Positions 4,042-64,000 of a stretch of DNA of 64,000 nucleotides are shown here, piece by piece; position 1 is the stretch's first letter; each line of letters opens with the position of its first letter. Position numbers and translations under genes: made by a program. The notes below the pieces were generated by a model that did no database searches, was not told the origin of the DNA, and worked only from the letters and a program-made list of their open reading frames with translations. Origin of the DNA: Glaciecola amylolytica (GTDB taxonomy: Bacteria; Bacteroidota; Bacteroidia; Flavobacteriales_D; Crocinitomicaceae); NCBI GenBank assembly GCA_003856375.1, contig CP034120.1:1426001-1490000 (forward strand). The letters are read 5' to 3'.

Positions 4042-5403
4042 ATGAAAGTTTATAACAACATATTGGAAACCATCGGGAACACTCCTTTGGTGAAATTAAA
4101 CAAGCTCACAAAAAACTGTAAGGCAACTGTTTTGGCGAAAGTTGAAACAACCAATCCGGGAAACTCTGTGAAAGACAGAATGGCCGTGAAAATGATTGAA
4201 GATGCTGAAAAAGCAGGATTATTGAAACCGGGAGGAACGATCATCGAAGGAACTTCAGGAAATACAGGAATGGGTTTGGCTTTGGTTGCAATCATTAAAG
4301 GTTATAAACTGATCTGCGTTTTGAATGACAAACAGTCGAAGGAGAAAATGGATATTTTACGCGCAGTTGGTGCGGAAGTAGTTGTTTGTCCTACGGCGGT
4401 TGAACCTTCAGATCCACGTTCCTATTATTCGGTATCCAAAAGATTGGCAAAAGAAATTCCGAATTCCTGGTATGTAAACCAATACGATAACTTGTCGAAC
4501 AGAACGGCTCATTATGAGCAAACAGGACCTGAAATTTGGGAACAAACCGAAGGGAAAGTGACACATTTTATCGTTGGAGTTGGAACCGGAGGAACGATTT
4601 CCGGAGTTGGTAAATATTTGAAAGAGAAAAACCCGAATGTGAAAATCTGGGGAATCGATACGTATGGTTCTGTTTTCAAAAAGTACAAGGAAACAGGAAT
4701 TTTCGATGAAAATGAGATTTATCCGTATATCACTGAAGGAATCGGGGAAGATATTCTTCCTGCAAACGTAGATTTCGAAGTGATTGATTTGTTCGAGAAA
4801 GTAACAGATAAAGATGCAGCAGTTTACACGCGTCGTTTGGCTCGTGAAGAAGGAATTTTCGTTGGAAACTCAGCAGGAGCTGCAATCGGTGGATTAATTC
4901 AGTTACAGGATCAGTTGACGGAAGACGATGTAGTGGTTGTTTTATTCCACGATCATGGAAGCCGTTACGTTGGGAAGATTTTCAACGACGATTGGATGCG
5001 TGAAAGAGGATTCCTGGAAGAAGAATTTAAAACAGCTGAAGATGTGATTGCGCGTCATGCGGACTTGCCTTTGGTAACATTGTATTCTGAAGAATTGGTG
5101 TCTCACGCGATTATGAAAATGCGTAAGTACAACATTTCTCAGATTCCGGTATTGAGAGACGGTGAATTGGTAGGTTCGTTGAATGATTCTCAGGTTTATC
5201 AGTTGTTGGTCGACAATCCTGCATTGCGTGATACTCCGATTTCTAAAATCATGCAGAAACCTTTCCCCGTTGTTCAGGCGAGCGCAAAGTTGGAAGATGT
5301 TGCAAAATTAATCAATGAGCAAACTCCGGCTGTGATTGTGGAACGTGCAAACGGCGACAAAAAGATTTTAACACGTCAGGATGTAATTGCTTCTTTGGCG
5401 TAG
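4042..5403 (+). CDS. cystathionine beta-synthase-type PLP enzyme with CBS domain pair
   Basis: A fold-type II PLP enzyme of about 453 residues. The PLP lysine lies in NPGNSVKDR (Lys44), the phosphate loop is GTSGNTG near residue 72, and a second glycine loop is GVGTGGTISG near 176. Residues from about 330 to the end form two CBS motifs (DLPLVTLYSEELVSHAI and IMQKPFPVV regions), often an adenosyl-ligand sensing module. This architecture is that of cystathionine beta-synthase, which condenses serine and homocysteine, though cysteine synthase activity is also seen in the family. I start at ATG 4042 because the family begins near YNNILETIGNTP and a promoter lies between this ATG and 3970. The next gene's GTG overlaps its TAG. 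Confidence 0.88.
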   Translation: MKVYNNILETIGNTPLVKLNKLTKNCKATVLAKVETTNPGNSVKDRMAVKMIEDAEKAGLLKPGGTIIEGTSGNTGMGLALVAIIKGYKLICVLNDKQSKEKMDILRAVGAEVVVCPTAVEPSDPRSYYSVSKRLAKEIPNSWYVNQYDNLSNRTAHYEQTGPEIWEQTEGKVTHFIVGVGTGGTISGVGKYLKEKNPNVKIWGIDTYGSVFKKYKETGIFDENEIYPYITEGIGEDILPANVDFEVIDLFEKVTDKDAAVYTRRLAREEGIFVGNSAGAAIGGLIQLQDQLTEDDVVVVLFHDHGSRYVGKIFNDDWMRERGFLEEEFKTAEDVIARHADLPLVTLYSEELVSHAIMKMRKYNISQIPVLRDGELVGSLNDSQVYQLLVDNPALRDTPISKIMQKPFPVVQASAKLEDVAKLINEQTPAVIVERANGDKKILTRQDVIASLA

Positions 5404-54803: not shown

Positions 54804-54827
54804 CTATTTGTCCGATAGAATATATAG
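54804..54827. promoter_or_regulatory. 24-bp palindromic operator upstream of the TonB receptor
   Basis: CTA and TAG ends flank a TCCGATAGAAT core; arms match at 7 of 10 positions. The site is the same as 57964-57987 in spacing and core (TCCGATAGRAT), both 20 bases upstream of the -33 TTG. Confidence 0.7.
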
Positions 54828-54894: not shown

Positions 54895-57432
54895 ATGAAA
54901 ACAACAATACTCTTTTTCTTGCTTGGAATAAGTATCCGGGTTCAGGCACAAACAATTATTCGGGGGAATATTTCCGACGAAAGCGGACAATCTATTTACA
55001 ATGCGCGGGTCACGTTGCTGAACTCCGGAAAGACTTACATGGTAGATTCACTTGGCGTTTTTCTCATTGAAACTTCGGAGAAATTACCTTACAGATTGAA
55101 GTTCCATGCCGTCGGATTTCAAGCTTCGGAAGAGGAATTGAATGCTTATCCGCAAACTCCGCTGAAAATCACATTGAAAGATGAATCCTTGTCGGAAGTG
55201 GTGGTTTCTGCCCGCCGGAGAAATGAAACAGCTCAGGATTTACCGATTCCGATTGCGGTTGTATCCGGTGCAGCGATTGCAGAATCCGGGTCCTTCAATG
55301 TGAATCGGGTAAAGGAATTGGTTCCTTCCGTTCAGTTGTATTCATCCAATCCACGAAATACAACCTTGAACATTCGCGGTTTGGGTTCCACTTTCGGTTT
55401 GACAAATGACGGAATTGATCCCGGAGTAGGATTTTATGTCGATGGAGTTTATTATGCCCGTCCGGCGGCTACAACACTCGATTTTATCGATGTTGATCAG
55501 ATTGAAGTGTTGAGAGGCCCGCAGGGAACATTATTTGGAAAAAACACAACAGCGGGTTCTTTCAACGTAACCACCAAAAAGCCTGAGTTTACGCGTGGAG
55601 CAAATTTTGAACTCAGCTACGGAAATTACGGATACATTCAGGCCAAAGCATCCGTAACAGGGCCGCTAACCAAAAAACTGGCCGCACGGGTTTCTTTTTC
55701 GGGTACTCAACGAAACGGAACGATTTACAATGTTTCTACCAATAAATACACGAACGATCTGAATAACATCGGAACACGCGTTCAGCTCTTGTATAACCCC
55801 ACCAGTAAGATCGACGTTGCGCTGGCCGGAGATTTTACACGGCAAAGACCGGACGGTTACGCACAGGTTGTAGCGGGAGTTGTGAAGACCAAACGAGTGG
55901 CTTACAGACAATTCGATCAGATTATTGCTGATTTGAATTACTCTTTGCCCGGTGAAAATGCTTTCGATCGTAAAATTGATCACAATACAAGCTGGAAATC
56001 GGATCAGGATCTCGGAGGAGTTTCATTAAACGTTGATTTCCGGATAGGGAAGGGAAAATTGACCTCGACAACAGCCTGGAGATTCTGGAACTGGAATCCG
56101 TCTAACGACAGAGATTTTACGGGACTTCCTGTTCTGACTTTGTCGCAAGCACCATCGAAACATCAGCAATGGTCTCAGGAAGTGCGATACGCAGGAAACA
56201 TCGTGAAGAAACTATCAGGTGTAATCGGAGTTTACGCCATTGGACAGGAATTGAAAACCTGGCCGTATCATACCGAAGAATCAGGCGCTGCACAATGGCG
56301 ATTTTCTCAAAGTTCCACCAGTTCTCTGTGGCAGACTCCGGGCTTGTTTGAAGGATACGGAATCCGTACAACTTCAGCGTTGACAACATTCAGTGGTGCA
56401 GTATTCGGGCAGTTGGATTGGGAAATACTCAAACAACTGCACGTTTTGGGAGGTTTAAGAGTGAATTACGACGAGAAGAAAGTCAATTTCAGCAGAAAAA
56501 CCTATGGTGGACTGGAAACCACTGATGCGCAATTGATCGCCTTGAAGAAACTGGTTTACAGCGATCAGGAATTTTCGTCCGGAACGGATAATTCCAATGT
56601 TTCCGGGCAGCTTACATTATCTTACAAACCGATCAGACAAATGAATATTTATGCGACCTATTCCACGAATTACAAACCCGTTGGCTTGAATCTGGGCGGT
56701 CTGCCTACAGAATCCGGGCGTGTAATGACCGAATTGGCGGTGATTCGTCCGGAATACGTTCAGCATTACGAATTTGGAATTAAAACATCGTTTAAGCGGA
56801 ATTTCATATTCAACATTACGGCATTCAATACGGATATCAAAGATTATCAGACGCAGGTTCAAACAGCAGAAGTAGGAGTGAACCGCGGTTATTTAGCCAA
56901 TGCAGAGCGGGTTCAGGTTTTCGGTGTGGAAGTAGACGCCAATTTGAAAATCAATCAATACCTATCAATTTACGCGAACGGAGCATACACGGAAGGGAAA
57001 TATGTGAAATTTACCAATGCACCTGTTCCCTTGGAAGAAACGGGAGGTTCGGCTGCCTTCAAGGATGTTTCGGGATCGAGACTGCCGGGAATTTCCAAAT
57101 GGACGGTATCTGCCGGAGCGGAGTTCGGTCTTTCCGGAAAATTACTGGGTTGGTCAGGAAGATTCTTTCTGGCTTTGGATACTTACGCGCGCTCTTCGTT
57201 TTCATCCAGTTCTTCCGAATCTGCTTATCTGAATGTTTCCGGATATTCCCTGTTGAATGCCCGCATCGGTTTCAGAGCCGTGGACGGTGTTTCGGTTTAT
57301 TTCTGGGGAAGAAACATTTTGAACAAGAATTACTACGAACAGTTATTGGTTGCAGCCGGAAATGCAGGTCAGTTTGCTGCTGTGTTGGGTGATCCGATGA
57401 CTTTTGGTGTAACCCTAAAGTATTCATTTTAA
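54895..57432 (+). CDS. TonB-dependent outer-membrane receptor in the sulfur regulon
   Basis: 845 residues, signal peptide 1-18, an N-terminal carboxypeptidase-regulatory-like sandwich (about 20-95), the plug (about 105-230 with ETAQDLPIPIAVVSGAAIAES, IDPGVGFYVDGVYY, IEVLRGPQGTLFGKNTTAG) and a 22-stranded barrel ending in an aromatic residue (TFGVTLKYSF). Its operator and promoter are superimposable on those of the sulfite reductase operon, so it probably imports a sulfur-containing compound rather than iron; the ligand is inferred from regulation alone. No SusD partner is present. Confidence 0.9.
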   Translation: MKTTILFFLLGISIRVQAQTIIRGNISDESGQSIYNARVTLLNSGKTYMVDSLGVFLIETSEKLPYRLKFHAVGFQASEEELNAYPQTPLKITLKDESLSEVVVSARRRNETAQDLPIPIAVVSGAAIAESGSFNVNRVKELVPSVQLYSSNPRNTTLNIRGLGSTFGLTNDGIDPGVGFYVDGVYYARPAATTLDFIDVDQIEVLRGPQGTLFGKNTTAGSFNVTTKKPEFTRGANFELSYGNYGYIQAKASVTGPLTKKLAARVSFSGTQRNGTIYNVSTNKYTNDLNNIGTRVQLLYNPTSKIDVALAGDFTRQRPDGYAQVVAGVVKTKRVAYRQFDQIIADLNYSLPGENAFDRKIDHNTSWKSDQDLGGVSLNVDFRIGKGKLTSTTAWRFWNWNPSNDRDFTGLPVLTLSQAPSKHQQWSQEVRYAGNIVKKLSGVIGVYAIGQELKTWPYHTEESGAAQWRFSQSSTSSLWQTPGLFEGYGIRTTSALTTFSGAVFGQLDWEILKQLHVLGGLRVNYDEKKVNFSRKTYGGLETTDAQLIALKKLVYSDQEFSSGTDNSNVSGQLTLSYKPIRQMNIYATYSTNYKPVGLNLGGLPTESGRVMTELAVIRPEYVQHYEFGIKTSFKRNFIFNITAFNTDIKDYQTQVQTAEVGVNRGYLANAERVQVFGVEVDANLKINQYLSIYANGAYTEGKYVKFTNAPVPLEETGGSAAFKDVSGSRLPGISKWTVSAGAEFGLSGKLLGWSGRFFLALDTYARSSFSSSSSESAYLNVSGYSLLNARIGFRAVDGVSVYFWGRNILNKNYYEQLLVAAGNAGQFAAVLGDPMTFGVTLKYSF

Positions 57433-57486: not shown

Positions 57487-57942
57487 ATGATTCCAAAAAG
57501 ATCGAAATATGCTATTCAGGCGTTGAAATGTCTGGCTAAAGTTTACCGCGAAAAGAAACACTTGTCAATCGCTGTGATCGCTGAACAGGAGAAGATTCCA
57601 CGAAAATTTCTGGAAGCTATTCTGCTGCAATTGAGAAACGGCGGACTTGTCGGAAGTAAGATGGGAGCAAGCGGAGGTTACTTTTTGGTCAAACATCCGG
57701 ATGAAATTGTATTGAGCAATATTATTCGTTTGACCGGTGGTCCTATTGCCTTACTGCCTTGCGTGAGTCTGAATTTTTACGAAGAATGTATTGAATGTCC
57801 GCACGAAGAGCTGTGCGCTTTACACGATGTAATGCTCGAAGTACGTGAAGCAAGCATTCATATTTTATCTAAAACAAGTCTGGCAGATTTAATTTTAAGA
57901 GAAAAGAAATTATTCAGAAAACATGAAAACAAGCGTAAATAG
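57487..57942 (+). CDS. Rrf2-family transcriptional regulator with four-cysteine C-terminus
   Basis: 151 residues of the Rrf2/IscR family: MIPKRSKYAIQALKCLAKVY, the wing LRNGGLVGSKMGASGGYFLVK, and a Cys cluster (Cys92, Cys101, Cys104, Cys110). Family regulators sense Fe-S clusters or cysteine-pathway metabolites. The cysteine spacing differs from IscR, so ligation is not certain. It lies between the TonB receptor and the sulfite reductase operon and is the obvious candidate to bind the operators in this region, which is inference. A near-palindrome (57461-57475) and a TATATTTA element just before the ATG could serve autoregulation. Confidence 0.87.
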   Translation: MIPKRSKYAIQALKCLAKVYREKKHLSIAVIAEQEKIPRKFLEAILLQLRNGGLVGSKMGASGGYFLVKHPDEIVLSNIIRLTGGPIALLPCVSLNFYEECIECPHEELCALHDVMLEVREASIHILSKTSLADLILREKKLFRKHENKRK

Positions 57943-57963
57943 TGATTTTTTGATTTTTAATTC

Positions 57964-57987
57964 CTACTTATCCGATAGGATAAATAG
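57964..57987. promoter_or_regulatory. 24-bp palindromic operator upstream of the sulfur operon leader
   Basis: CTACTTATCC-GATA-GGATAAATAG; the arms match at 9 of 10 positions. Its centre is about 65 bp upstream of the predicted start of transcription, which suits an activator. Confidence 0.75.
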
Positions 57988-58006: not shown

Positions 58007-58037
58007 TTGCTCTTTTTAAGAAGAGGACTTTACTTTG
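58007..58037 (+). promoter_or_regulatory. promoter of the sulfite reductase operon
   Basis: TTG at 58007-58009, 20-bp spacer, TTACTTTG at 58030-58037. Transcription would start near 58041, so the leader ORF at 58047 begins almost at the 5' end. Confidence 0.65.
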
Positions 58038-58046
58038 CAGGACAAA

Positions 58047-58142
58047 ATGAAAATAGAAATGATTCAAAGAAACTTCATGCACAACATGCAAATATGCTGT
58101 ATGTCTGTCAAGCGACGGACAGCGGGAGGTATAATTATATAA
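58047..58142 (+). CDS. Met/Cys-rich leader peptide of the sulfur operon (putative attenuator ORF)
   Basis: A 31-codon ORF starting 10 nt after the promoter element. It holds five Met codons and two adjacent Cys codons (TGC TGT at 58095-58100, then ATG), and ends VKRRTAGGIII. The last codons (GCG GGA GGT) overlap GCGGGAGG (58122-58129), which can pair with the 5' arm of the terminator at 58159-58194. In a classic attenuator, stalling at Cys codons would free this segment and prevent termination. Too short for standard gene callers; translation is inferred from its position and codon content. It could also be chance, which conservation would test. Confidence 0.6.
   Translation: MKIEMIQRNFMHNMQICCMSVKRRTAGGIII
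58105..58134. promoter_or_regulatory. leader RNA hairpin and antiterminator arm
   Basis: CTGTC (58105-58109) can pair with GACAG (58118-58122). Then GCGGGAGG (58122-58129) and TATAA (58130-58134) can pair with CTTC-T-CCGC (58163-58171) and TTATA (58155-58159), about 13 bp with two bulges, excluding the terminator stem. Confidence 0.5.
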
Positions 58143-58158
58143 GTTAACAACGAGTTAT

Positions 58159-58194
58159 AACCCTTCTCCGCTTTTTGGTAGAGAAGGGTTTTTT
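58159..58194 (+). terminator. attenuator terminator before the aldo/keto reductase gene
   Basis: AACCCTTCTC (58159-58168) pairs perfectly with GAGAAGGGTT (58181-58190) around a 12-nt loop, followed by T4. It sits between the leader ORF and the first structural gene, so readthrough must be regulated for the operon to be expressed. Confidence 0.85.
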
Positions 58195-58216
58195 ATTGGC
58201 ATTAAAAAAAGAAATA

Positions 58217-59095
58217 ATGAAAAAAGTATATATCAATGAATATGGTCCGCGGGTTTCAGCTGCAGTTTATGGATTCTGGAGATGGACCGAAGAAGATCTG
58301 AATGACAGCAAAAAGCTGGAAGAAGTAGTGTTGTTCACCCGCGAACTTGGAATTGATACCTATGACCTGAGTTCAGGAGTCGGAGGAAATGAACTGGAGC
58401 ATCAGTTCGGAAAACTGATTGAATCCGGAGTAATCGATCAATCGGAGTTGATTTTATCAACCAAGGTCGGAATCCGGGAGTATTCCGGAGCTTACGGAAG
58501 CGGGATTTATTATGATTTGAGTCCGCAAAACATTACCAAAAGTGTTGAACAATCTCTGAAACGCTTAAAACGGGAAAAGATTGAAATTCTGATTCTGGAA
58601 CATTTTGATTTCCTTGCAAACATCGAAGAAACAGCATCCGCTTTATTGAAATTACAGCGAAGCGGAAAGATCTCATACATCGGAGTGTCGAACTTCAATG
58701 TGTTTCAGCAGCGCTTGTTGTCAGCTACACTTTCCCAACCGATCATTACCAATCATTTGGAACTGAATCTGCTTCAAACAGAGGCATTGCACGACGGGCG
58801 GCTTGATTTTATCAGAGAACAGCACAGTCGGGCACTTGCATTTTCACCGTTGGCGGATGGCCGGATTTTGTTGGGAGAAGATGCACAAGCGGTGAAACTG
58901 CGTTTGGCTTTGATCGAAATCGGAAAGAAATACGAGGCAAATGTGGAGCAGGTTGCGGTAGCCTGGTTGAATAAACTGGGAGCACTTCCGATTATCGGCA
59001 GTAAAGAAAAACGCAGAATCCAGAATGCTGCAACGGCTCATTCATTCGAATTGTCGCAGGAAGATTGGTATTACCTCTATCATGCAACCAAATAA
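58217..59095 (+). CDS. aldo/keto reductase-like protein lacking the catalytic tyrosine
   Basis: 292 residues from the ATG at 58217; the in-frame TTG at 58175 lies within the terminator and is rejected. The (beta/alpha)8 fold of AKRs is recognisable: GIDTYDLSS (Asp50), STKVGI (Lys83) and LILEHFDF (His129) keep three of the tetrad residues, but where YdhF-type AKRs have DIYGG the sequence reads GVGGN, with Val55 in place of the catalytic Tyr. The downstream motif GVSNFNVFQQRLL is present. First gene of the sulfite reductase operon. It may be a non-canonical reductase or inactive. Confidence 0.82.
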   Translation: MKKVYINEYGPRVSAAVYGFWRWTEEDLNDSKKLEEVVLFTRELGIDTYDLSSGVGGNELEHQFGKLIESGVIDQSELILSTKVGIREYSGAYGSGIYYDLSPQNITKSVEQSLKRLKREKIEILILEHFDFLANIEETASALLKLQRSGKISYIGVSNFNVFQQRLLSATLSQPIITNHLELNLLQTEALHDGRLDFIREQHSRALAFSPLADGRILLGEDAQAVKLRLALIEIGKKYEANVEQVAVAWLNKLGALPIIGSKEKRRIQNAATAHSFELSQEDWYYLYHATK

Positions 59096-59097
59096 TC

Positions 59098-61224
59098 ATG
59101 GAAAGTTTCAGAACAGAATACGAACTTCAGACTGAAGCGAAGAAAATCCGGGTTGAACAGGATATTCTCGAGTTGGGAGAAAAAATTGCGGCTTTCAAAG
59201 AAGGAAAAATTCCGGATGATAAGTTTCGCTCATTGCGCTTAGCCCGTGGAGTTTATGGCCAGCGTCAGTTGGGTGTTCAGATGATCCGGATTAAACTTCC
59301 CTACGGAAAAGTGAATTCCCGTCAATTGAGGCGAATTGCGCAGGTCAGCGATGAATACAGTACAGGGAAATTGCACATAACTACCCGGCAGGATATTCAG
59401 ATTCACCATGTTTCCCTTGACAGAACTCCGCAATTGTGGGCTGATCTGGAAAAAGATGACGTGACTTTGCGTGAAGCTTGCGGAAACACCGTTCGGAATG
59501 TGACAGCGAGCGACAATGCCGGCATCAATCCCAATGAGCTTTTTGATGTGACACCTTATGCCGAGCAGGTATTTCAATATTTTCTGCGAAAACCGTTCGG
59601 ACAGGAATTAGGGCGAAAAATAAAGATTGCTTTCAGCTCAGATGATGTCGATGATGCATTTACATTCATTCACGATTTTGGATTTATTCCCCGTATTGAA
59701 ATTCAAAACAATTCCGATAACTCCCCGAATGAAGTAAAAGGATTTAGAGTTTTGATTGGTGGCGGATTAGGTGCTCAACCTTTTTTGGCAAACCTTGCCT
59801 ACGAGTTTCTTCCTGCAAGCGAATTGATTCCGTTTATAGAAGCTTCCATCCGTATTTTCGACCGGTATGGGGAACGTAACAGCAGGAATAAAGCACGGAT
59901 GAAGTACCTGATTTCAAAAATTGGACTTGAAAAGTTCATGGATCTGGTAATAGAGGAGCGACTGGCGGTTCAGTACGACCCTGAAAATGACGCTGTAAAA
60001 AGCCTGTTTGAGCAGGATTATGAAAAGCTGAATCCGATTGAAATCAATACTTTGTTTACAGATGATCAACTTTATAATGAATGGATCAGAACCAACGTGA
60101 TTCTGCAAAAGCAACAGGGATATCTGGCTGTTTATGCAAAAGTTTCTTTGGGCGATTTTTCTACTGATCAGGCTCGTTCCCTGTCAGATTTGCTGGATGA
60201 GTTCGGTTTTTCTGAATTGCGTTTTACCATTCATCAGAATATTCAGATCAGAGGAGTAAAGGCGGAACAATTACCACTTGTTTATGCGAAGCTGAGGGTT
60301 CTGAATCTGGCAGATTCAGGATTCAACCGCCTCACCGACATTACTGCTTGTCCGGGAACGGATACCTGTAACCTGGGAATCTCCAACAGTACGAACGTGG
60401 CATTGGAACTGGAATCATTTATCCGGACTTCCTATCCGGGATTGATAGAAGAAGCCGCAATCAAGATCAAAATCAGCGGTTGTATGAATTCCTGTGGTCA
60501 ACACGGTTTGGCGCAGATCGGTTTTCACGGAAGCTCAATCAAAACCAAAGAAGGAACGCTTCCGGCTCTACAGGTATTACTCGGAGGAGGAAGCACAGGT
60601 TCGGGAAGTGGAAGAATTGCCGAAAAAACGATCAAAATCCCAAGTAAACGCGTGTTGAAAACGATTCAGGCGATTTTAGACGATTACCTCCGTTTTCATG
60701 AAAATGCAGAAACGTTTAATGATTATTACGACCGGCAGGGAAATCTTTATTTCTACAATTTGCTCAAACCGCTCACAGATCTGGAACAAACAGAAGAAAC
60801 CGAATACCTTGATTGGGGACAGGATCAACGCTTTGCGACAGCAATTGGAGTAGGAGAATGTGCCGGAGTAATGATTGATCTGGTGGCGACACTCTTTTGG
60901 GATGCGGAAGAAAAACTGGAGTCTGCTCATCAGGCATTTCAGGAAGAAAGATATGCAGATGCGGTTTATTACGCATATGCTTCCGGAATTCTCGGAGCAA
61001 AAGCCAGATTGATTGAAAAAGGAGTGAAATGTAATACACAGCACGGCATTCTGACGGATTTTGATACGCATTTAGGACCAGCATCCGGTTTTTCAGAAGA
61101 GAAATCCTTTCACGACTTTATGTTGAGAATCAACCAGGAGAAAGCAAACGAACTTTTTGCGTCGGATTATCTGAAAGAGATTGACGCATTCATTACAAAA
61201 TTGAAAATAAGAGATGAATACTAA
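59098..61224 (+). CDS. siroheme-dependent sulfite (nitrite) reductase with extra C-terminal helical domain
   Basis: 708 residues. Ferredoxin-like half-domains and the siroheme/4Fe-4S site are complete: Cys418 and Cys424 in ACPGTDTC, Cys462 and Cys466 in SGCMNSCGQHG, with KLHITTRQDIQIH and RFTIHQNIQIRG. It reduces sulfite to sulfide (nitrite is the alternative); the sulfur-gene context decides for sulfite. About residues 590-708 (DYLRFHENAETF to the end) form an added helical domain resembling HEPN-like domains, absent from classic CysI/NirA. The ATG at 59098 follows the AKR stop by 2 bases; the next gene overlaps by 11. Confidence 0.93.
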   Translation: MESFRTEYELQTEAKKIRVEQDILELGEKIAAFKEGKIPDDKFRSLRLARGVYGQRQLGVQMIRIKLPYGKVNSRQLRRIAQVSDEYSTGKLHITTRQDIQIHHVSLDRTPQLWADLEKDDVTLREACGNTVRNVTASDNAGINPNELFDVTPYAEQVFQYFLRKPFGQELGRKIKIAFSSDDVDDAFTFIHDFGFIPRIEIQNNSDNSPNEVKGFRVLIGGGLGAQPFLANLAYEFLPASELIPFIEASIRIFDRYGERNSRNKARMKYLISKIGLEKFMDLVIEERLAVQYDPENDAVKSLFEQDYEKLNPIEINTLFTDDQLYNEWIRTNVILQKQQGYLAVYAKVSLGDFSTDQARSLSDLLDEFGFSELRFTIHQNIQIRGVKAEQLPLVYAKLRVLNLADSGFNRLTDITACPGTDTCNLGISNSTNVALELESFIRTSYPGLIEEAAIKIKISGCMNSCGQHGLAQIGFHGSSIKTKEGTLPALQVLLGGGSTGSGSGRIAEKTIKIPSKRVLKTIQAILDDYLRFHENAETFNDYYDRQGNLYFYNLLKPLTDLEQTEETEYLDWGQDQRFATAIGVGECAGVMIDLVATLFWDAEEKLESAHQAFQEERYADAVYYAYASGILGAKARLIEKGVKCNTQHGILTDFDTHLGPASGFSEEKSFHDFMLRINQEKANELFASDYLKEIDAFITKLKIRDEY

Positions 61225-61990
61225 AGAAAATCCCCAAATTTCTCTCGTCGGAGCGGGTCCGGGAGACATTGATCTGATTTCCGTAAAAGGATTGGACCGG
61301 CTGAAAAAAGCGCGGGTAGTACTCTACGATGCTTTGGTCAACGAAGAACTATTGACTTATGCTCCCACGGCAAAAAAGATTTTTGTTGGAAAACGAAAAG
61401 GATATAAAGCGTATGAGCAGGAAGAAATCAATCAACTTCTGGTCGAATCGGCGAATGAATTCGGGCATGTGGTGCGCTTAAAAGGTGGCGATTCCTTTGT
61501 TTTTGGAAGAGGAATGGAAGAAATTCAGTTTGCCCGGAAATATCAGATTCCGACAGAGGTTATTCCCGGAATTTCAAGTTCGATTTCCGTTCCGGCTTTG
61601 GCAGGAATTCCCGTTACACACCGGGGAGTCAGCAATTCGTTTTTTGTACTTTCCGCTACTTTGGCCGATGGATCGTTGAATCCGGAGTTGAAAAAAGCAG
61701 TGCAACTGGACGCTACGATTGTCATTCTGATGGGATTGAGCCAACTGGAAAAAATCACCCGTTTGTATCAGGAAGAATCGAAACAGGATCTTCCGGCTGC
61801 AGTGATTTATAACGGTTCTCTTCCGGATCAAAAAATACTTAGTGGTAACATTGAAACGATCACTGGGTTGCATCAGCAAGCCGGAATTGAAGGTCCGGGA
61901 GTGATCGTAATCGGAAATGTGGTTGCTTTTTCAAGTGCTGCTGCTCATTCAGAAACGTTTCATGAAGCAAAATCGACCTGTCTTTCATGA
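61214..61990 (+). CDS. cobA: uroporphyrinogen-III C-methyltransferase (SUMT)
   Basis: 258 residues with SUMT motifs: SLVGAGPGDIDLISVKG, RLKGGDSFVFGRG (the SAM/substrate loop) and GISSSISVPALAGIPVTHRG. It makes precorrin-2 from uroporphyrinogen III in siroheme synthesis, needed by the sulfite reductase upstream. Start overlaps the previous stop by 11 bases and the next gene by ATGA. Confidence 0.93.
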   Translation: MNTKENPQISLVGAGPGDIDLISVKGLDRLKKARVVLYDALVNEELLTYAPTAKKIFVGKRKGYKAYEQEEINQLLVESANEFGHVVRLKGGDSFVFGRGMEEIQFARKYQIPTEVIPGISSSISVPALAGIPVTHRGVSNSFFVLSATLADGSLNPELKKAVQLDATIVILMGLSQLEKITRLYQEESKQDLPAAVIYNGSLPDQKILSGNIETITGLHQQAGIEGPGVIVIGNVVAFSSAAAHSETFHEAKSTCLS

Positions 61991-63468
61991 GAGAATCAGT
62001 GGTAAACGAACTTTTTCCGGTTTTTCTCAAAACCAATGAGTTGAATGTCTTGTTGGTAGGCGGGGGAAATGTGGCACTGGAAAAACTGAGGGCTTTATTG
62101 ACGAATTCTCCCGAAACCAATATCTCGGTCGTTTCGAGAGAATATCAGGAAGCGTTTATAGACTTTGCAGAACGTCATGAAAACGTTTATCTGGAAACCC
62201 GTGACTTCGAAAAAGAAGACATTCTGGATAAACAACTGATCATTACGGCCTTGAATGACGTGGATCTTTCAGAGGAAATCATGAATCTGGCAAGTGATTC
62301 GGGAATTCTGTACAATGCAGCCGATAAACCTGATTTGTGTACATTTTACCTCGGATCGGTAGTTCGGAAAGGACATCTGAAGATTGGAATTTCGACCAAT
62401 GGAAAGTCGCCGACTTTAGCCCGGCGGCTCAAAGAAATCCTGGACGAAAATTTACCGGATGAACTGAATGAGTCTGCTGTTCAGCTGAATTCCCTGCGAA
62501 GCTTTCTGAAAGGAGATTTCAGGAAGAAAGTCCGGAAAATGAATAAAGCCACAGCAGGTTTGTTGGTTCGGGCGGAAAGGCCCTGGTATTTTTTTTCTCC
62601 ATGGAAATTACTGGCATATCTGGTCAGTATTTTGGGAGTAATGTTAGCCGGACATTTGATCTTCACATTGATTCCGCTGGAAACAATCTGGATTTCCGCT
62701 TCCGGTGCACTTGATTCATTGACCATTGATTTTGCGTACTTCATATTGGCTGGTTTCATTGCACAATTGATCGATGGTGCATTGGGAATGGCTTACGGAA
62801 TCAGCGCAACAACTTTTTTACTTTCGTTTGGAATTTCTCCGGCGATTTCCAGTATGGCGGTTCATGCTTCGGAGATTTTTACCAGCGGCGTATCCGGAAT
62901 TATGCACCTGCGCTTTGGAAACGTCAATAACCGCTTGTTCAAATCAATCCTGATTCCGGGTGTTTTAGGAGCGATCGTGGGAGCATACGTCTTGTCGGAA
63001 TTTGAATCTTACAACAACATCATCAAACCTGTTGTAAGTGCATATACTTTGTTTCTGGGAGCTTTGATCATTTATAAAGTGATCCGGAAAAAACAAACCC
63101 GGAAAAAGGTCACTAAAGTTGGTTGGTTGGGATTGCTTGGCGGTTTTCTTGATTCTATCGGCGGTGGTGGCTGGGGACCGGTTGTTTCTTCGACATTGAT
63201 TGCCAGAGGAAAACATCCGAGAATGATTGTCGGATCGGTGAATCTGGCGGAATTTTTTGTTTCGCTGGCCAGTTCTTTCACCTTTTTCACGGTTTTGGGA
63301 GCAAGTTCTGTTTGGCAGCCGATTGTCGGGTTGATTCTTGGTGGAGTTTGTGCAGCACCGATCGCTGCTTATCTGGCATCGAAGTTAAATATCAAAGCCT
63401 TGATGCTTTTTGTGGGAATTGTAGTTGTGATAGTGAGTTTACGCAACTTTTTAACCTTGTTATTCTAG
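61987..63468 (+). CDS. precorrin-2 dehydrogenase/ferrochelatase fused to TauE/TSUP transporter
   Basis: 493 residues in two parts. Residues 1-195 are siroheme synthase N-terminal (NAD loop LVGGGNVALEKLRALL, ISTNGKSPTLARRLKEIL) that oxidises precorrin-2 and inserts iron, completing siroheme with SUMT. Residues about 205-493 are a TauE/SafE-type membrane protein with about eight spans (FIAQLIDGALGMAYGISATTFLLSFG, SMAVHASEIFTSGVSGI, GFLDSIGGGGWGPVVSSTLIARG). TSUP transporters move sulfite, sulfoacetate or sulfate. Coupling one siroheme step with an anion transporter is unusual; both halves belong to the same sulfur pathway. The usual separate transporter gene is not seen here. Confidence 0.9.
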   Translation: MRESVVNELFPVFLKTNELNVLLVGGGNVALEKLRALLTNSPETNISVVSREYQEAFIDFAERHENVYLETRDFEKEDILDKQLIITALNDVDLSEEIMNLASDSGILYNAADKPDLCTFYLGSVVRKGHLKIGISTNGKSPTLARRLKEILDENLPDELNESAVQLNSLRSFLKGDFRKKVRKMNKATAGLLVRAERPWYFFSPWKLLAYLVSILGVMLAGHLIFTLIPLETIWISASGALDSLTIDFAYFILAGFIAQLIDGALGMAYGISATTFLLSFGISPAISSMAVHASEIFTSGVSGIMHLRFGNVNNRLFKSILIPGVLGAIVGAYVLSEFESYNNIIKPVVSAYTLFLGALIIYKVIRKKQTRKKVTKVGWLGLLGGFLDSIGGGGWGPVVSSTLIARGKHPRMIVGSVNLAEFFVSLASSFTFFTVLGASSVWQPIVGLILGGVCAAPIAAYLASKLNIKALMLFVGIVVVIVSLRNFLTLLF

Positions 63469-63472
63469 AAAA

Positions 63473-64000
63473 ATGATTGAGAAAATAAAAGAAATCACGT
63501 ACGACACGCTGGAGGATTACCTGCTTCGCTTATCGGAAATAAAAGATGTGAATATTGCTTTTTCAAGCAGTTTGAGCTGGGAAGATCAGGTAATCACGCA
63601 CGCTATTTTTAGTCAGAATTTACCGATCCGGGTTTTTACCTTGGATACGGGAAGATTGTTTCCTGAAACTTACAGCGTGATTGAATCGACACGTCAGCGT
63701 TATCAAAAATCGTTGGAAGTTTATTTTCCGAAGCACGAAGCTGTTGAGGATTTGTTGACCAGGAAAGGACCAATCAGCTTCTATGAATCGATTGAAAACA
63801 GAAAAGAGTGCTGTTTTATTCGAAAAGTGGAACCTCTGAACCGTGCTTTGGAATATGTCGATGTTTGGATCACCGGATTGAGAGCGGAGCATTCCGAAAA
63901 CAGAAACGATCTGAGCCTGGTTGAGCTTGATCCGGGAAGAGGAATCGTGAAAGTAAATCCTTTGGCTTTCTGGAGTCTGGAAGACGTGAAATCATACGTC
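63473..64000 (+). CDS. cysH: APS/PAPS reductase (CysH family), 3' end cut by window
   Basis: 176 codons are visible, then the window ends. Pyrophosphatase-like loop SSSLSWEDQ, the LDTGRLFPETY motif, and ECCFIRKVEPL, the two-Cys/RKVEPL signature of the [4Fe-4S] class, which points to adenylylsulfate (APS) reductase rather than PAPS reductase; GLRAEHSENR follows. It reduces activated sulfate to sulfite for the reductase upstream. Start follows the fusion gene stop by 4 bases. The C-terminal CXXC-type end is outside the window. Confidence 0.9.
   Translation, partial: MIEKIKEITYDTLEDYLLRLSEIKDVNIAFSSSLSWEDQVITHAIFSQNLPIRVFTLDTGRLFPETYSVIESTRQRYQKSLEVYFPKHEAVEDLLTRKGPISFYESIENRKECCFIRKVEPLNRALEYVDVWITGLRAEHSENRNDLSLVELDPGRGIVKVNPLAFWSLEDVKSYV

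Follow-up and report, generated by a model that had tools for sequence, protein, structure and literature searches.

Leader-peptide attenuators of the trp, his, leu and ilv type, known from Proteobacteria, place codons for the end product of a pathway in a short reading frame ahead of the biosynthetic operon, and an antiterminator competes there with an intrinsic terminator. For cysteine, the closest described systems come from other phyla. In the excerpts drawn on here, predicted Cys leaders of Actinobacteria are described as lacking conserved terminators, with Rho suggested (PMC1262725); leaderless poly-Cys ORFs of mycobacteria were named cysteine-responsive attenuators by Canestrari et al. 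2020 (cited in PMC9094748); and uORFC-8-2, which precedes cysS in Rhodobacterales, has adjacent Cys codons, usually codons 14 and 15, followed by a terminator, an arrangement for which attenuation is predicted (PMC8632094). Within Bacteroidota, the excerpted text reports leader-peptide attenuation before amino-acid biosynthesis operons of Flavobacterium psychrophilum (PMC9723704) and mentions leader-like ORFs in Bacteroides (PMC7366714), and the words Bacteroid- and Flavobacteri- are absent from the main text of PMC2965389 as excerpted. Among the matches listed in the literature searched, from which subscription papers were mostly absent, there was no cysteine attenuator of Bacteroidota and no composite of a SAM riboswitch with a poly-Cys ORF; this limited negative agrees with the suggestion of the initial annotation that such an element may be new for the phylum. 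We put the probability at roughly 0.85 that the leader described here is a ribosome-mediated transcription attenuator sensing charged tRNA-Cys, perhaps also tRNA-Met.

The leader and its operon in the window

The window, the whole 64,000-nucleotide stretch of DNA analysed, carries the regulator gene, the leader and the operon on the + strand. A gene for an Rrf2-family transcriptional regulator (57487..57942; Pfam PF02082, E 8e-31) lies upstream of an operon that begins with an aldo/keto reductase (58217..59095; PF00248, E 4.8e-35) and continues with a sulfite reductase that has NIR_SIR domains and a C-terminal HEPN match (59125..61224, start approximate; PF01077, PF03460, PF05168). These are followed, in 61214..64000, by Pfam matches to a tetrapyrrole methylase, a fusion of a siroheme-synthase N-domain with TauE (61987-63465) and a PAPS reductase (cysH) that runs off the window. 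The leader had been placed directly before a sulfite reductase operon; the operon is as claimed, but its first structural gene is the aldo/keto reductase, with sulfite reductase second.

Downstream of the regulator gene, a core-pattern search found the conserved palindrome TCCTACTTATCCGATAGGA (57962..57980), a likely Rrf2 operator. Of the 14 genus genomes, 12 contain its core pattern, in one or two copies each, and a reversed-pattern control gave 0 occurrences. The location of this putative operator just 5' of the promoter suggests a second, protein-based input to the operon. Another copy of the palindrome is found in the window at 54804-54820, ahead of a TonB-dependent receptor at 54895 that has neither a Cys leader ORF nor a terminator. 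The orthologous receptor of genome G006 (loci L022 and L229) does have a leader ORF, with two Cys codons, and a terminator, and that of G007 (L228) has a short ORF with one Cys, where no terminator was found.

The promoter predicted from the sequence (58007..58037) consists of TTG at 58007-58009 and TACTTTG at 58031-58037, and TTACTTTG from this region is common to all 11 genus leaders. TACTTTG fits TAnnTTTG, the promoter element of Bacteroidota, and therefore the 5' end of the RNA is predicted to lie a few nt from 58047. Direct reading bore out the features first noted in the leader: an ORF of 31 codons (58047..58142; peptide MKIEMIQRNFMHNMQICCMSVKRRTAGGIII and the stop codon TAA at 58140-58142) with five ATG codons, including the start at 58047, the adjacent Cys codons TGC TGT (58095..58100), which are the proposed stall site, a gap of 16 nt between stop codon and terminator, and a perfect terminator stem of 10 bp with a T tract. 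The ORF is present as described from 58047, but the conserved start is probably the ATG at 58059 (27 codons, four Met), because the relatives start at the aligned codon. An alignment of the genus leaders also showed that the window genome has an insertion of 4 nt, just past the Cys codons, that the other ten lack; the resulting frameshift moves the leader stop 3' of its usual place.

The intrinsic terminator (58159..58194), identified from sequence and folding, pairs AACCCTTCTC with GAGAAGGGTT (58159-58168 with 58181-58190) ahead of six T, and its 5' arm is shared with a predicted antiterminator. Co-transcriptional folding of the window sequence gives AGCGGGAGGTATAATT (58121..58136) as the 5' arm of this antiterminator; it overlaps the end of the ORF, includes GCGGGAGG (58122-58129) and TATAA (58130-58134), and contains a GCGG that is invariant in all 11 genus leaders. 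RNA folding places a small hairpin, TGTCTGTC..GACGGACA (58102..58121), just 3' of the Cys codons; its equivalents are TGTCCC..GGGACA in G002, G006, G008 and G012 and weaker in the other genus leaders. The leader of 175 nt folds better than 200 of 200 of its own dinucleotide shuffles (z -4.8). Since the fold beats the shuffles and the arrangement recurs in relatives, the arrangement exceeds what chance would produce. A SAM riboswitch or a T-box was rejected as the identity of the leader, as nothing in the window scored as high as the gathering threshold of any Rfam family.

We infer the antiterminator and the switch from folding, and the proposed mechanism would run as follows. RNA polymerase would start just 5' of the leader ORF with a ribosome trailing behind it. 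When Cys-tRNA is ample, the ribosome would reach the stop codon and cover GCGGGAGG-TATAA, leaving the two arms of the terminator to pair with each other, and transcription would stop before the operon. When Cys-tRNA is scarce, the ribosome would stall at TGC TGT and leave GCGGGAGG-TATAA free to pair with the 5' arm of the terminator, and the sulfate-assimilation operon would be transcribed.

Conservation and predicted folding within the genus

The aldo/keto reductase is found in 11 of 14 same-genus genomes and the sulfite reductase in the same 11. Conservation of the ORF and the terminator in relatives, on which the initial annotation had made its proposal depend, held throughout: all 11 operon-bearing genomes have a Cys-containing leader of 22-31 codons followed by a terminator. 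Cys codons occupy the equivalent part of every one of these leaders, as CC in eight, CCC in two and a single C in one (G003). A covariance model of the leader (R1), built from the 11, matched those 11 strongly and gave no match in G004, G005 and G010, the three genus genomes without sulfite reductase. In G005 (L011) the palindrome, the promoter and a leader-like ATG are kept although the genome lacks sulfite reductase, no terminator is evident by eye, and this remnant is probably a relic. A search of 240 family genomes with R1 returned 19 weak rows, 18 of which were read (L066 was left out). These included a Cys leader (L056), two His leaders (L051 and L054) and an Ile-rich leader (L053); no convincing leader was seen in the remaining weak rows of the 18.

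Substitutions within the leader ORF number 36/41/88 at codon positions 1/2/3, counted from the start codon as far as the Met that follows the Cys codons, over all, non-independent, pairs of 7 of the 11 genomes. This is the pattern expected if the leader ORF is translated.

For the switch itself, we folded the RNA of each genus leader up to just before the 3' arm of the terminator, setting the A site of the ribosome at the first Cys codon. With the RNA masked to the Cys codons, every one of the 11 leaders is predicted to form a hairpin that takes up some or all of the terminator 5' arm; with the RNA masked to the stop codon, the pairing is weak (-0.3 to -3.9 kcal/mol). Within the genus, these antiterminators barely exceed their shuffles (z 0 to -2.9). 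The window sequence gives z -1.29, with 54 of 500 shuffles as good, and the values for G006, G002, G008, G012 and G011 are 0.0, -0.5, -0.6, -0.6 and -0.7. Likewise, 5-9 of the 10 bases in the terminator arm are paired, near the averages of 5.9-7.1 given by shuffles. Covariation in the genus does not amount to proof: changes in the antiterminator are mostly one-sided and values like those observed are common among shuffles, and in the terminator two pairs changed on both sides, one of which is unpaired in 7 of 10 sequences. Mutually exclusive structures are supported by predicted folds in all 11 leaders and by an excess over shuffles in the larger set of 67 leaders described below, but values in the genus alone are near those of shuffles.

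The antiterminator also forms in folds without any ribosome, and termination would therefore depend on translation. In the full-length RNA the terminator is retained in all three ribosome states, so that the switch would have to be decided during transcription.

Cysteine leaders at sulfite reductase loci across Bacteroidota

The only criterion for a first sample of 80 loci, the best 80 kept, was the sulfite reductase protein. On its coding strand, the preceding 1500 nt were scanned for an ATG-initiated ORF holding two or more Cys in a stretch of four codons and then a terminator. By this loose rule, a Cys-dense ORF precedes a terminator in 54 of the 80 loci; L089, L106, L146, L148 and the far row of L107 were judged spurious by eye, which would leave 50 of 80 (the deduplicated counts given below are unedited). 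For the other 26 of 80, no Cys leader with a terminator was found in the 1500 nt upstream, although four of them (L098, L100, L112 and L142) have a poly-Cys ORF with no accepted terminator. According to record titles, some of which are unreliable for metagenomes, the hosts include Chitinophaga, Pedobacter, Mucilaginibacter, Pontibacter, Adhaeribacter and Flexithrix. Applying a stricter rule (an amino-acid doublet, or three in six) to all amino acids at the 80 loci, we obtained 40 for Cys and 30 for Met, where the reverse strand had 3 and 0, and the next residue, Leu, reached 16 versus 15 on the reverse strand. After deduplication to 75 loci, a Cys leader stands before a terminator in 38, compared with 3.29 expected from dinucleotide shuffles, and the count for Met is 28 compared with 1.15 expected.

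A second sample was drawn evenly over the phylum, with a sulfite reductase match in 64 of 392 genomes; 62 loci were examined, leaving out the window genome and a match at a contig end (G460). Fourteen of the 62 were flagged, or 13 after dropping the spurious L219, and these fall in family f14 (6 of 11), family f18 (3 of 4) and outside the class (4 of 7). Families without a detected leader account for 40 of the 62 loci (0 of 40). The strict rule, at 54 loci, gave 13 for Cys versus 1.5 expected and 6 for Met versus 0.73; related species are contained in both samples. At L230-L244, in families f17 and f19, genes of Rrf2, cysH, cysD and cysN size (named from size and order) stand before sulfite reductase. 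In the 12 kb upstream of these 15 loci, two rows were flagged but judged spurious, and no convincing Cys leader was seen. Both families appear to be Flavobacteriaceae-like.

The Met counts raise the question of whether methionine is the main stall signal, or shares that part equally with cysteine. Met is a second specific signal in the 75 loci, internal Met is richer in Cys leaders (181 of 1738 residues) than in non-Cys ORFs before terminators (64 of 2476), and the window ORF has its five Met codons. The Cys signal is nevertheless the stronger one in both samples, the Met codons are mostly on the 5' side of the Cys codons, further from the antiterminator, and Pontibacter-type poly-Cys ORFs have zero or one Met between the ATG and the Cys run. 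Moreover, the product of the sulfite reductase operon is sulfide, from which cysteine is made directly. A signal carried mainly or equally by methionine is thus unlikely in our view, and we retain Cys-tRNA as the principal input.

Antiterminator folding was evaluated for 67 distinct Cys leaders, a set that omits L089, L106, L146, L148 and L219 and keeps three possibly spurious entries (the far row at each of L167 and L173, and at L102 an overlapping ORF that is short). Their mean z is -1.74, with 63 of 67 negative, and 0.69 of the terminator arm is paired versus 0.51 in shuffles. When a common rule for the position of the ribosome was used, 66 Cys leaders had a mean z of -1.57 (57 negative; arm 0.60 versus 0.46), compared with -0.38 for 29 non-Cys ORF-terminator pairs (15 negative; arm 0.50 versus 0.52). 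The antiterminator pairing therefore appears to be tied to leaders of this kind and not to terminators generally.

These statistics bear on another explanation, in which the terminator is constitutive, the operon is under the Rrf2 regulator only and the short ORF plays no part in regulation. An Rrf2 gene and a conserved palindrome do lie directly upstream, families f17 and f19 combine Rrf2-size and cys-type genes with no convincing leader, and the antiterminator statistics are weak in the genus itself. What such a terminator leaves unexplained is the specificity for Cys and Met, the third-position excess of substitutions and the antiterminator excess in the larger set. Nor would it account for the spacing, in that, among the gaps listed where -5 to 110 nt were allowed, true-looking leaders nearly all end 16-47 nt before the terminator; in the 67-leader set the gaps are also 16-47 nt (median 26), a range due partly to construction because only 14-50 nt were admitted. 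We therefore rejected a constitutive terminator as the main reading and consider it very improbable.

The same rules applied at 30 hisG loci (L245-L274), a non-random draw of the best-scoring 30 of 128 matched genomes, gave 18 for His and 0 for both Cys and Met, with 2, 2 and 2 on the reverse strand. With the ribosome at the first His codon, all 17 His leaders evaluated had negative values (mean z -2.1; arm 0.72 versus 0.42). As hisG gives His and sulfite reductase gives Cys, the codon signal matches the amino acid of the operon. Together with the His leaders of L051 and L054 and the Ile-rich leader of L053, this makes leader-peptide attenuation look common in Bacteroidota. The hisG parallel also weighs on the possibility that the product of the ORF is a Cys/Met-rich microprotein, for example a metal-binding one, that acts as a protein. 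Such a product would fit the coding-type substitutions and the leader peptide, which is partly conserved in the genus. Between genera, however, the peptides listed have little in common beyond Cys/Met clusters and a position before the terminator, and His codons take their place at hisG. On these grounds a microprotein was discarded as the main reading, and we regard it as exceedingly improbable, keeping to ribosome-mediated attenuation.

Several loci depart from the single-leader arrangement. Tandem units, each with a Cys leader ORF and a terminator and present twice, lie ahead of sulfite reductase at L109, L122, L129 and L144. At L144 (4485-4729), a tRNA-Cys (gca) gene at 4657-4729 separates the tandem Cys units from sulfite reductase, the only tRNA-Cys among 60 loci scanned. 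An Rfam scan of 24 of the 80 loci, the second dozen picked partly for likeness to Pontibacter, found a SAM riboswitch (RF00162) with its end 383-599 nt before sulfite reductase in nine (L088, L089, L092, L093, L098, L100, L106, L112 and L142; eight Pontibacter and Botryobacter by record title) and elsewhere in two others. Directly after each of the nine riboswitches, in an arrangement seen for example at L088:4364-4587, comes an ORF that ends in poly-Cys and whose in-frame ATG lies ~7-9 nt 3' of the SAM aptamer. There was no consistent terminator 3' of these nine ORFs, and they may therefore act differently. We give about even odds to the wider proposal that Bacteroidota have widespread sulfur attenuators reading Cys and Met together, sometimes in tandem and, in relatives of Pontibacter, fused to a SAM riboswitch to form a two-input switch (SAM and Cys-tRNA). 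If real, the composite of SAM riboswitch and poly-Cys ORF would be an unusual two-signal RNA device for sulfate assimilation.

Comparison with described attenuators

If the attenuator reading is correct, several lineages of Bacteroidota gauge sulfur amino acids through ribosome stalling, and it becomes possible to annotate short Cys-rich ORFs ahead of their sulfur genes as regulatory. The literature searched describes no case in Bacteroidota of cysteine controlling sulfate assimilation at the RNA level. Like the trp, his, leu and ilv attenuators, the locus combines a short ORF that holds codons for the product of the pathway, antiterminator and terminator structures predicted to be mutually exclusive, and a biosynthetic operon. 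End-product codons, an intrinsic terminator and, over the 67 leaders, the folding statistics of an antiterminator are all found here. Unlike in those systems, the amino acid is cysteine (with methionine), the pathway is sulfate assimilation, the phylum is another one, and no protector hairpin that would enforce termination of an untranslated leader is evident in the folds.

With the mycobacterial and actinobacterial Cys leaders, as excerpted, the locus shares a run of Cys codons within a short reading frame that precedes cysteine genes, and the near-leaderless start predicted in the window genome recalls the mycobacterial poly-Cys ORFs. It differs from the actinobacterial leaders, in the excerpted account of PMC1262725, by a strong intrinsic terminator, a predicted antiterminator and Met codons mixed in with the Cys codons. 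The adjacent Cys codons followed by a terminator resemble uORFC-8-2, but that element precedes a cysteinyl-tRNA synthetase gene in Alphaproteobacteria, with no methionine enrichment described in the excerpted text (PMC8632094). Here the proposed attenuator lies upstream of the aldo/keto reductase and sulfite reductase genes and not of cysS, the position that characterizes uORFC-8-2. The case of F. psychrophilum is in the same phylum, and the section on 5' cis-regulatory RNAs of that paper, as excerpted, names no cysteine or sulfur operon (PMC9723704). The mechanism proposed for the locus is thus the classical one, and what is new, as far as searched, is the phylum, the operon, the mixture of Cys and Met codons, the tandem copies and the nine Pontibacter-type loci that join a SAM riboswitch to a poly-Cys ORF.
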